From contig NZ_JAJSED010000001.1 of the NCBI RefSeq assembly GCF_023555385.1, forward strand, positions 620,001 to 684,000: a stretch of 64,000 bases of DNA. Reading direction: 5' to 3'. Each line of letters begins with the position of its first letter. Positions within the stretch are counted from its first letter, which is position 1. Source of the stretch: Guyparkeria hydrothermalis. Lineage in GTDB: Bacteria > Pseudomonadota > Gammaproteobacteria > Halothiobacillales > Halothiobacillaceae. This document shows positions 38,765 to 44,620 of this stretch, one piece after another. Both the position numbers and the translations under genes were made by a program. Below the pieces are notes generated by a model. That model saw only the letters and a list, made by a program, of their open reading frames with translations. It did no database searches and was not told the origin of the DNA.

Positions 38765-39574
38765 CTAGCCGCCAAGCGCGCGAATCGCTTCGTCGAGCTC
38801 GTCGTCGATCAGGCTGGCTTCAAGATCGACACCCAACTTCTCGGCGGCCATGATCGGCCGATCATCCGGCGTACGGCTGATACCACGAGCCTGTGCAATC
38901 GCGCAGATGACCACGTCGCTGTAGTTCGGATCCCCGTCGTGCTGATAGCCGAGATCCCCACAGTGCTCGATCACCTCGGCGAACATATCCGGGAAATCCC
39001 AAGCCTTGACGATGTTGCCGCCTAGGCGCCATTGCAGGCTCTCGACCAGCTCGTCGAGCAAGGCCGGAGCCTCAAGCAGCTTGGGGATGTCCTCGGCCAC
39101 CACGATCACCGGGATGCCGCCCACGCTGTGGAGCAGACCGGCCAGCAGCGCCTGGTCGGCATCCAGCTTCGTATGACGCTTGGCAATGTGGTTCGACAAG
39201 GCCGCCACCTGCGTGGCGAAGGCCCAGTGATCCCGCATGATGCGCTTGATCGTCGGCGTCTCGGCCGTAAACAACTGCTTGGCCGACAGCGAGATGATCA
39301 GCTGGCTGACCGTGCGCATTCCCAGTCGCGAGACGATTTGGACGAGGTTGTCGATGTGCTGACCGCCCCGGTACATCGGGCTGTTTGCCACCTGGATCAG
39401 GCGCGCGGCAATCGCGGGATCCTGCGAAATCACGTCGACCAGGTCGCTGGCCGAGCTGTTGGGGTCATCGATCACCCGGCGCGCACGCAGCGCCACGTCA
39501 GGCAGTACCGGCAGGGCAATGCCCTTGTCACGGATCTTGTTGATGATCGCCTGTTCAAGTGCCGGATTGGACAC
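38765..39574 (-). CDS. HDOD-domain protein
   Basis: 269 residues from GTG 39574, preferred over ATG 39604 because GGGAGAAG lies directly upstream. The HDOD domain fills most of the protein: VLPDVALRARRVIDDPNSSA, then ISQDPAIAARLIQVANSPMY and VSRLGMRTVSQLI, with a degenerate HD core (LLAGLLHSVGGIPVIV). HDOD proteins lack the metal-dependent phosphohydrolase residues and usually act in signalling, often around c-di-GMP or stress. No partner domain is fused here. Same strand as ettA, 55 bases downstream of its stop. Confidence 0.88.
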   Translation of the reverse strand: MSNPALEQAIINKIRDKGIALPVLPDVALRARRVIDDPNSSASDLVDVISQDPAIAARLIQVANSPMYRGGQHIDNLVQIVSRLGMRTVSQLIISLSAKQLFTAETPTIKRIMRDHWAFATQVAALSNHIAKRHTKLDADQALLAGLLHSVGGIPVIVVAEDIPKLLEAPALLDELVESLQWRLGGNIVKAWDFPDMFAEVIEHCGDLGYQHDGDPNYSDVVICAIAQARGISRTPDDRPIMAAEKLGVDLEASLIDDELDEAIRALGG

Positions 39575-39628
39575 GTTTTCTTCTCCCTGAATAACGCCGG
39601 TCACCTCGATCCGGGCCGGCCTCCACTA

Positions 39629-41296
<1,668 letters not shown>

Positions 41297-41331
41297 ATGC
41301 TTGATCGGGATTTTCTGTTGTTGCAAACGAA

Positions 41332-43242
41332 ATGAAGCGGCACTATCCCGCAGGAATAGTGACCGCGTTTGATCACAAGGATACCAGCACTGTGCCGCGA
41401 CTTGATGCCCCCTCCTCCTCGAATCCACCCGGCCCGCATCCGTGGCAACCGGTCACGCTCGCTGAGTTTCACCTTCCCCTGCCCGCCTTGCTGATTGTCC
41501 TGCTCGTCGTAGCCCTTGGCGCCATGCCGGGCGCCCATGCCGCCTCCGAGCCGGAACTGCATGTCCTGATCGACGTGTCCGGCTCGATGAAGAAAACCGA
41601 CCCCGAAAATCTGCGCGAGCCGGCGCTTCGGCTCCTCGGCGATCTGGTTCCCGAACAGAGCCGCGTACAGGTCGACCTGTTCGGCAACCGCATCACCACG
41701 GAACTGCCCGCCTCCCGGGCCACTCCGGACACCAAACGCGCCATGCGGGCTGCCGCCGAGCGCATCCGTTCGAACGAACCGTTCACCGACATCCCGGCCG
41801 CACTGGAAGCCGCCAACGGCGACTGGGGAGAGGACACGCAGCGCAACGTTATCCTGCTGTCCGATGGCAAGGTGGACATCTCCCCGGACACGGCGGTCAA
41901 CGAGCGTGCCACGGCACGTCTGCGCGACCAGGTGATCCCGGCACTGATCGACGCCGAGGTCCAGGTCCATACGGTTGCCCTGTCCGCGGCAGCCGACGAC
42001 GCCATCCTGACCGAAATTGCCGAACGTACGGGTGGGCTTGCGCTCAGCGCGCGCAGCAACGCCGACCTGCAGCGTGTATTCCTGTCGCTGTTCGAGGCGA
42101 CCGCCCCACGTACCGGCGTACCGCTGGTGGAAAATCGCTTTCGCGTCGACGAGAGCATCAGCGAGCTGACCCTGGTGGTCTTTCGCCAGCAAGGTGCCAA
42201 TCCGACGCGTATCAAGCTCCCCGACGGTGGCGAGGTCGACGCCGGCATCGCCTCCACCCTCGCGAACTGGCGCTGGGACGACAGCGCCGGGCGTGACCTG
42301 ATCACCGTTCAGGATCCCCCTGCGGGCAGCTGGCAGATTCTCGCCGCCGAGGACCCCGACAATCGCGCCCTGGTCATCACCGATCTCAAGCTGGGCATGC
42401 CGGAGCTACCCAGCCGGATCTACCCCGGGGAAACCATCGATGGCCAACTGCTGCTCACCAACCACGGCGACCCCATCGTCGAGCCACGCCTGACCGACGA
42501 CATCAGCGCCGCGGTACGAGTCAACGGACCCACCGGCGAGGCGGTCGACGAGCTGGCACTCAATGACGTCGGTGCCGACCCGGACGTGCTCGGCGGCGAC
42601 GGCGTGTATCACTTTCGCATCCGGATCAGCGAGGACCCGGGCATCTACACCCTCGAGGGGCGGGCCAGCGGGCCTACCTTCGAACGGGTGATCCGCAAGA
42701 AGGTGGCACTGGCCCGCACTCGGCCATTCGACGCCCGGATCGAATCCGAAACCCCAGCCGCCCCCATGGAGTCGGGTCAGGAGCAACCGACACCCGCAAC
42801 CTGGCTGGTCGTCGAGCAAGACGTCTCGGTGCTCGATCCCGCGAACTCTCGTCTGGAAGCCGTCCTCGGGTGCTCCAACTCAGCAGATATTCCCGTAGAG
42901 GCCGCGCTGCCGTCAGCCACCAACCGCATCGACCTCCCGGCTCGGACGAACGAGGACTGCCGTGTCAGCGGCGATATTGTCGGTCAGACGCGCGACGGGC
43001 GGGACATCACGCTGCCGCTGGACCTCAACCTGCCACGCACGGAGCCCGTGGTCGCGGACGATGAGGTCGCGCCGGATGTCGCTGTCGAGGAGGCCACTCC
43101 CGCGAATGACAACGAGGGCAACCCCCTGTTGGCCATGCTGATCGGCCTCGGCGGCCTGCTGGCCCTGGCATTGCTCGGATGGCTCTGGCACGGCGTCGTC
43201 TCACGCAAGCGGCAGCGTCTGATCCAGGCGGCCCGCGCCTGA
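41332..43242 (+). CDS. Membrane-anchored von Willebrand factor A domain protein (TIGR03503-like)
   Basis: 636 residues; role unknown. A hydrophobic signal ([21 protein letters not shown], about 50-70) precedes a VWA domain with the metal-binding site [10 protein letters not shown] and [10 protein letters not shown]. Two beta-rich regions follow (about 270-470, with AGSWQILA and [12 protein letters not shown], as in extracellular Ig-like modules), then a membrane helix ([20 protein letters not shown]) and basic tail. This layout suggests a periplasmic sensor or assembly factor anchored in the inner membrane. Start uncertain: in-frame GTG codons at 41359 and 41392 have purine-rich upstream sequence. 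The next gene is its likely partner. Confidence 0.75.
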
Positions 43243-43288
43243 ACCAAATCGACCACACCCCGAAAGACACAGCACGGATTTCCGACAC

Positions 43289-44620
43289 ATGCTCGACTAC
43301 TTCCTGAGTTCCGACTGGGCCATCATCGCCACCGAGCTGCTCGCCGGCTTGCTCGTAATCACGCTGATCCTGGCTTTTCTTGTATGGCGCGGGCAGCGAC
43401 GCCACACGGACGCCGCCGAACGCCTGCTGGACGATAGAAATCCGATCCTGCGCGCCTCGGAGGAGATGGTCGGACGGCAAGCCGAGCGGGTCTGGCCCGG
43501 CATGACCCTCGATGACGAGCAACGACAGATCTACGCCGAGCGTAGTCTCGATGCCGTGGAGGCGATGGTCGAACCCTGGCTCGAGCCCAAACGTCACGAT
43601 CTTTCCTCGGTCGCCAGACAGTTCCAGCGCGTTCGCCAGGAGGACCTGGAGCAGTTGCTGACGCTGGCCCACGCCCATGCCGAGGCGAGCCAGGCAGACG
43701 ATGCTCGGGTAACCGAGCTCGAAGAGGAGCTGCGCGAACTGCGCGAGCAGCGGGACCGCCAGGCCAACCATCTCAACGACTCGCTGGAAACGGTCAACGT
43801 GATGGTGCGTGAGTATGGCCGCAAGTTCGATTACAACGAGGAGCCCCACGTCGCCACCGTGCTCAAGGCCATCGTGATGGTTCAGGAAATGGCGGCCGGG
43901 GCCGACTGCGAGACGGCTCAACAACGTGCCGAGGATGTCTTCAGCGAGGATCTGGTAGCCGCACCGGCGCCCAAAGTCGAGGACACCCCGGCGCAGGCAA
44001 CCATGGAGGCGCAGGACGAGGCAGCCCCCGAAACCACCCCAGAGATAACGTCACCCGCCGCCGAGCCGGACGAGGCCATGGCGGCCTCCGAACCTTCCAC
44101 TGCAAAGACCACCGACAGCATCGACGTCGGTGGCGAACAAACTGGTCAAAACGCTCAGGACCAGGCCGAAGCGCCGGCAGCCGAGCCCGCCACCCAGGCG
44201 ACATCGGCCATGGAATCGGCGGGCGAAGCCGCAGCCAGTGCCGATGACGACATCGACGCCCTGATCGCGCAGGCCCAGGCCAGCCAGGACGCGACCGCTG
44301 CGGCGAGTCAGGCAATGGTTTCCGGAGGCGAGACGAACGAGGCGGGCGAACGCGAGAGCGCAACCACGTCCACGCCCGGCGATGAAGCGGGCGCCAACGC
44401 CGCTAGCACCGAGGTGCCGACCTCAACCGAGACATCCGCCGACGAGTCGATGGAGCTTTCCGAAGAGGATCCCGAGGAAAACGGGGTGATCGACCTCGAC
44501 GACGTCGAGATCCCCGAAGAGGAAAAGGACAAGCCGCAAACGGAAAGCGACGCCTACGATCTGGACGACATCGACGCCCTGCTTGATGCCGAAATCGCCA
44601 AAAAGCACGGCAAGTCATAA
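43289..44620 (+). CDS. Uncharacterised membrane-anchored coiled-coil protein with acidic disordered tail
   Basis: 443 residues. One N-terminal membrane helix (about 8-30, ATELLAGLLVITLILAFLVW), a cytoplasmic Arg/Glu-rich region, a predicted coiled coil (about 125-175, ELEEELRELREQRDRQ), then about 200 residues of Ala/Glu/Thr/Pro-rich disordered sequence. The motif DDIDAL occurs twice, at 320-325 (continuing IAQ) and at 427-432 just before the C-terminus (EIAKKHGKS). I do not recognise the family. It starts 46 bases after the VWA gene on the same strand and is probably its partner. Confidence 0.7.
   Translation: MLDYFLSSDWAIIATELLAGLLVITLILAFLVWRGQRRHTDAAERLLDDRNPILRASEEMVGRQAERVWPGMTLDDEQRQIYAERSLDAVEAMVEPWLEPKRHDLSSVARQFQRVRQEDLEQLLTLAHAHAEASQADDARVTELEEELRELREQRDRQANHLNDSLETVNVMVREYGRKFDYNEEPHVATVLKAIVMVQEMAAGADCETAQQRAEDVFSEDLVAAPAPKVEDTPAQATMEAQDEAAPETTPEITSPAAEPDEAMAASEPSTAKTTDSIDVGGEQTGQNAQDQAEAPAAEPATQATSAMESAGEAAASADDDIDALIAQAQASQDATAAASQAMVSGGETNEAGERESATTSTPGDEAGANAASTEVPTSTETSADESMELSEEDPEENGVIDLDDVEIPEEEKDKPQTESDAYDLDDIDALLDAEIAKKHGKS

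Follow-up and report, generated by a model that had tools for sequence, protein, structure and literature searches.

A predicted two-protein inner-membrane module linked to flagella in Gammaproteobacteria, with FliM- or FliN-type motifs in a subset of its tails

The window analysed here, a 64,000-nucleotide stretch of the Guyparkeria hydrothermalis genome, contains two adjacent genes on the plus strand, separated by 46 bases. Gene 1 (41332-43242) encodes a TIGR03503-like VWA protein of 636 residues, predicted from the ORF, Pfam, NCBIfam and AlphaFold2 to be periplasmic with a C-terminal membrane helix, and gene 2 (43289-44620) encodes a 443-residue partner, which the ORF, the structure model and a locus survey describe as a single-pass membrane protein. 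Both reading frames and their spacing are as described in an earlier sequence-only reading of this DNA. The pair is flanked by EttA, which is divergent, and MurB, which is convergent, and therefore no MoxR, pilus or secretion genes adjoin it, in agreement with that reading. The EttA and VWA starts lie about 35 bp apart (41294-41332), which leaves no room for a VWA promoter clear of both the EttA gene and its leader. Gene 1 shares a membrane-anchored VWA domain and a metal site with the MoxR-associated VWA proteins of the BatA/BatB type; however, an adjacent MoxR AAA+ ATPase, the mark of that group, is not present at the window pair, and the partner is instead a helical membrane protein.

Gene 1 matches the Pfam VWA family PF00092 (E = 5.2e-10), with the VWA domain at residues 74-257 (41551-42102) by the Pfam match and the AlphaFold2 model. 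The MIDAS motif D81-x-S83-x-S85 (41572-41586) and the further metal ligands T152 (41785-41787) and D178 (41863-41865) were all invariant or nearly so in an alignment with 32 relatives, and the combination of a Pfam match with a complete MIDAS places the protein in the VWA superfamily. The AlphaFold2 model was confident (pLDDT 86) and comprised the VWA domain, beta-sandwich domains and a C-terminal helix at residues 598-635, where hydropathy and the model place the membrane helix at about residues 597-620 (43120-43191); the claim of a VWA protein with an intact metal site and a C-terminal anchor was thus borne out. The beta-sandwich region (residues 264-566, 42121-43029; NCBIfam and AlphaFold2) falls within the match to NCBIfam TIGR03503 (5.9e-34), which runs over residues 263-595 and covers most of the model (positions 3-332 of 374). 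The resemblance to TIGR03503 proposed earlier was therefore the correct family lead, although the score of 117.6 bits lies below the family cut-off of 305.6 bits. TIGR03503 is a hypothetical equivalog with no assigned function, and its layout of a VWA domain plus a C-terminal helix is common to gene 1. The two loci above the cut-off (L092 and L093) both have a FliA-like site upstream and, unlike the window pair, have no adjacent partner gene. A structure search with the VWA protein returned VWA-type matches alone, none of them full-length. The earlier suggestion that the pair is a candidate for an undescribed system is also supported: we found no open-access paper mentioning TIGR03503, and searches of open-access papers for this family, the motif strings and flagellar VWA proteins gave nothing on the module.

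The model of gene 2 showed an N-terminal membrane helix (about residues 10-34, 43316-43390, from hydropathy and alignment), further helices up to residue 218, and disorder beyond. A helical, coiled-coil-like region at about residues 99-181 (43583-43831) was indicated by the model and a heptad test, in which the a/d enrichment over residues 138-181 was modest, being matched by 0.75% of shuffles. Thus, from the earlier picture of a single helix, a coiled coil and an acidic tail, the helix and the tail hold and the coiled coil is modest, and the predicted topology agrees with the opposite anchoring proposed for the two proteins. The only clear helices modelled in the disordered tail, at residues 321-341 and 427-440, start exactly at two FliM-type motifs, DIDALI (residues 321-326, 44249-44266) and DIDALL (residues 427-432, 44567-44584), both of which the sequence-only reading had omitted. 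A conserved acidic block, EENGVIDLDDVEIPEEE (residues 396-412, 44474-44524), is 84% identical within the genus. Within-genus identity was 65% in the block around motif 1 and 85% in that around motif 2, as compared with 26-33% in the linker, and gene 2 diverges fast, with 12-32% identity outside the genus. No significant family match was obtained for gene 2 in Pfam or NCBIfam, including no FliM, SPOA, CheZ or DUF2802 domain in Pfam; PHROGs gave no match, and a profile search against the PDB gave coiled-coil noise.

The VWA gene was detected with the TIGR03503 model in 103 of 377 sampled gammaproteobacterial genomes, with relatives spread over the class (13 of 34 genera), and Guyparkeria and Halothiobacillus are among the named relatives sharing the conserved VWA motif. 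We fetched 100 loci from VWA-positive genomes across the class and called a partner by a hydropathy rule requiring a strong N-terminal membrane helix in a gene starting directly downstream. A partner was present in 88 loci from 38 GTDB families and was not found in the other 12; among the 88, the gap was 20 bp or less, or an overlap, in 74, the commonest overlap being 4 bp. The C-terminal half of the partner was net acidic in 81 of 88 cases. The two genes are therefore retained as neighbours, and the second is not a lineage-specific protein, the two outcomes on which the sequence-only reading had made its proposal depend. Some VWA proteins (L140, L125, L121, L099, L101 and L142) have a long acidic cytoplasmic tail of their own, and the partner tail of L111 contains a very long low-complexity repeat, (EAEP)n.

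The pair is located outside the flagellar gene cluster, and the genes flanking it differ by lineage (EttA, Min, PBP1b and others), on which ground a larger operon was rejected. L143, L144, L148 and L155 (families f86 and f87) have MinC/MinD genes upstream of the VWA gene in divergent orientation. In 7 of the 100 fetched loci, HDOD-type genes lie no more than about 5 kb from the pair, and one is near the pair in the window (38765-39604). A response regulator or CheV follows the pair directly in just five loci from three families: the next gene downstream encodes CheV in L121 and, in L094, L099, L101 and L162, a response regulator whose long C-terminal part is repeat-like. The upstream unit in these five loci is either the pair or a VWA gene with its own long tail, and a kinase-like gene comes next in some.

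The 377 genomes were searched for FliM, with the type IV pilus protein PilP as a control. FliM was found in 98 of the 103 genomes with the VWA gene as compared with 106 of the 274 without it (odds ratio 31, p = 4e-26), where absence of FliM may reflect assembly gaps in the sampled genomes. All 45 VWA-positive families had FliM in some member. When one random genome was taken per family, the odds ratio was about 32, with a median p of 1e-9 over 500 draws and a p of 2e-6 in the worst draw. The association was also seen within families (Mantel-Haenszel odds ratio 12, chi-square 6.0). PilP was associated with the VWA gene overall (odds ratio 4.6), but this association was gone among FliM-positive genomes (odds ratio 1.1, p = 1.0), whereas the odds ratio for FliM among PilP-positive genomes was 26; a link to type IV pili was therefore rejected. 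In the family of the window organism, FliM is missing from the three genus-g3 genomes that lack the VWA gene, one genome (G014) has both genes, and in another (G020, 92% complete) the VWA gene occurs but FliM does not. The G. hydrothermalis genome itself, a single contig of 2,392,942 bases, contains flhF, flhG, fliA, cheY, cheZ and cheA, as named from reading the sequences, together with a separate FipA-type DUF2802 protein. These results suggest that the two proteins very probably make up a conserved inner-membrane module of flagellated Gammaproteobacteria.

Regions up to 200 nt upstream of the VWA start were scanned for FliA (sigma-28) sites agreeing with at least 10 of the 12 consensus positions. 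Such a site was present in 41 of 96 loci, representing 24 of 43 families, as compared with 3 of 96 on the opposite strand and a rate of 3.3% in random windows. With the threshold raised to 11 positions, 18 loci remained, against none on the opposite strand and 0.2% of random windows. The sites concentrate at about -50 to -125. When the comparison was with the regions preceding other genes of these loci, the enrichment was significant (odds ratio 11.5, p = 8e-18; controls overall 3-6%), and of the nine strongest control sites, three stand before CheV-like or response-regulator genes. Sigma-54 sites were few and close to the shuffled level. No FliA-like site was found upstream of the window gene (best 7 of 12) or anywhere in its family, and thus the regulon evidence concerns the wider family and not the window locus. 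Sigma-28-class sites in many lineages would also fit late motor or chemotaxis parts, and hence a structural accessory in which the VWA protein, whose VWA and beta-sandwich ectodomain is large and of an adhesive type, braces the periplasmic motor or binds the cell wall while the tail touches C-ring or export parts, with no signalling. We regard this as unlikely, since the tail motifs described below resemble switch-protein ligands rather than ring-binding sites and are missing from most loci.

Polar residues inside membrane helices are seldom conserved without reason. Glu16 of the partner helix (43334-43336) was invariant in the alignment of relatives, and over all loci the partner membrane segment contained a Glu in 83 of 84 cases and the VWA membrane segment an Asn in 88 of 99. 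Their depth is mostly similar: counted back from the first basic residue, the Asn is at 11-16 residues and the Glu at 14-19. The window genus retains the Glu and has lost the Asn at the equivalent place. From this conservation, we infer that the VWA and partner helices bind each other within the membrane, and the polar residues conserved in both make it plausible that the pair passes information across the membrane.

FliM starts with a disordered segment containing LSQxEIDALL, which binds CheY-P (PMC6700473; PMC9126983). Partner tails were compared with composition-preserving shuffles (200 trials) for two motif types, FliM-type (DIDALL/EIDALL) and FliN-type (DDWAxAL; DDWAAAL in the switch protein). 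We found 51 FliM-type motifs in 26 of 142 distinct tails (shuffled expectation 0.5, maximum 4) and 44 FliN-type motifs in 10 of the 142 (shuffled expectation 0.27), both about 100-fold above the shuffles. As a comparison, 884 neighbouring ORFs, which at 280,000 residues amount to about six times as much sequence, contained six FliM-type and no FliN-type motifs. No locus combines the two types, and some tails hold five or six copies. The window protein has two FliM-type copies, placed in a disordered tail as is the CheY-binding EIDALL motif. In its genome, the DNA pattern for [DE]IDA followed by two L/F-type codons occurs five times: in gene 2, in FliM, at the C-terminus of a ParA-like protein and in two spurious-looking frames. 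The ParA-like ATPase (L332, G000:C1:1692783, minus strand) ends in ...LWEEIDALFA, which is FliM-type and may be another docking motif, and the CheA linker of the same genome (L335, 5090-7168) has two similar acidic motifs, ITDDEFESLLDELHGKG and ITDEEFEAVLDELYGKG.

Like the N-terminal segments of FliM and FliN, the tails carry motifs of the EIDALL or DDWAxAL type within disordered sequence. Unlike FliM and FliN, gene 2 has no SPOA/FliM domain and is membrane-anchored, and the motifs in partner tails are often repeated and stand at or near the C-terminus. A likeness to the CheZ C-terminal CheY-binding motif, a short acidic helix of the ...DD[IV]Dx LL type at the protein end (the CheZ of this genome ends in QDDVDDLLASLGF), is also apparent, but gene 2 has no CheZ domain match and is a membrane protein. 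Two single examples connect FliN-like repeats with the FliN of the same genome: in L107, tail repeats of the type EEDPWADALAEQASAE accompany a FliN reading EEDPWAEAMNEQADSE, and in L140, four repeats like VADAWAEALDEAGDST in the tail of the VWA protein itself accompany a FliN reading VADDWAAAMEESGDAA. Strict motifs were present in 37 of 153 loci; they therefore mark a subset, and docking would not be the general function of the module unless other tails use other motifs. For lineages like that of the window, we judge from the sequence that docking of a switch-complex ligand by the tail has about even odds.

These data also bear on the view that the two genes are a general envelope pair unrelated to flagella, with the co-occurrence due to lifestyle and the motifs to chance in acidic low-complexity sequence. 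This view gains from the lack of a FliA-like site in the window family, from the housekeeping genes beside the window pair and from the variable neighbourhoods elsewhere. We nevertheless consider it very unlikely, as the association holds with one genome per family and within families and is specific to FliM relative to PilP, and as the motifs far exceed composition-preserving shuffles and are conserved within a fast-changing linker. The envelope-stress setting suggested by the sequence-only reading found no support and was rejected; the co-occurrence, the promoters and the tail motifs point to flagella.

Taken together, the flagellar co-occurrence and, in some lineages, the switch-protein docking motifs of the tail suggest that the module helps control the flagellum. 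Alongside the gene pairing, the sigma-28-like sites in many lineages and the motif enrichment and conservation obtained by computation, we favour, with a probability of roughly 55%, an undescribed flagellum-associated inner-membrane complex that serves as a membrane docking site for CheY-P, FlhG or some other ligand of the switch complex. For the ligand, the role and the direction of any signal, we infer the following arrangement. Both proteins would form one inner-membrane complex in the flagellar/chemotaxis apparatus of many Gammaproteobacteria, with the VWA protein in the periplasm, anchored by its C-terminal helix, and the partner crossing the membrane once, so that its helical stalk and long disordered tail would reach into the cytoplasm. 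The two would pair in the membrane via the conserved Glu and, in most lineages, the conserved Asn. In a subset of lineages, including that of the window, tail copies of the FliM (EIDALL) or FliN (DDWAAAL) N-terminal motifs would hold motif-reading proteins at the membrane, these being CheY-P or FlhG for the FliM type, and an envelope cue, or position alone, may then tune flagellar switching, number or placement.

Landmark proteins have a one-pass membrane anchor and an acidic cytoplasmic tail, a layout similar to that of gene 2, and HubP/FimV and FipA of polar flagellates likewise cross the membrane once and have a cytoplasmic part. One alternative is therefore that the tail acts as a polar landmark or in numerical control, recruiting FlhG, and thereby FlhF and FlrA control, rather than CheY-P, beside HubP/FimV and FipA. 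FlhG is known to interact via the FliM N-terminus in monotrichous bacteria (PMC12826062), and FlhF, as read from the results table, occurs in at least 95 of the 103 module-positive genomes. However, FlhF is about as common as FliM, so that it does not discriminate and was dropped as a sharper marker, and no connection between FliN-type tails and FlhG is known: in monotrichous species, FlhG reportedly binds FliM but does not bind FliN (PMC12826062). Moreover, the genome already has its FipA-type protein, the HubP/FimV hallmarks (a periplasmic LysM and a C-terminal TPR-type domain) are absent from both proteins in Pfam and NCBIfam, and gene 2 differs from HubP/FimV and FipA in having neither LysM nor DUF2802, its periplasmic part being a separate VWA protein. 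We consider recruitment of FlhG alone a possible but rather doubtful account. Within the favoured reading of a ligand-docking complex, tuning CheY-P near the motor, placing FlhG and bracing the motor are candidate roles. The boldest form of that reading, which we put forward tentatively, is a widespread transmembrane system in which a periplasmic VWA receptor governs a membrane-anchored, switch-like motif array sequestering CheY-P or FlhG, and would thus couple envelope and flagellum through a control layer not described before.

About one in four of the gammaproteobacterial genomes sampled, and roughly half of the FliM-positive ones, have the module, and Halothiobacillus, a close relative of the window organism, is culturable. 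If the favoured reading is true, a transmembrane component would join the flagellar control network, switch-protein motifs would have been reused as repeated tail modules, and an uncharacterised family would gain a testable role.
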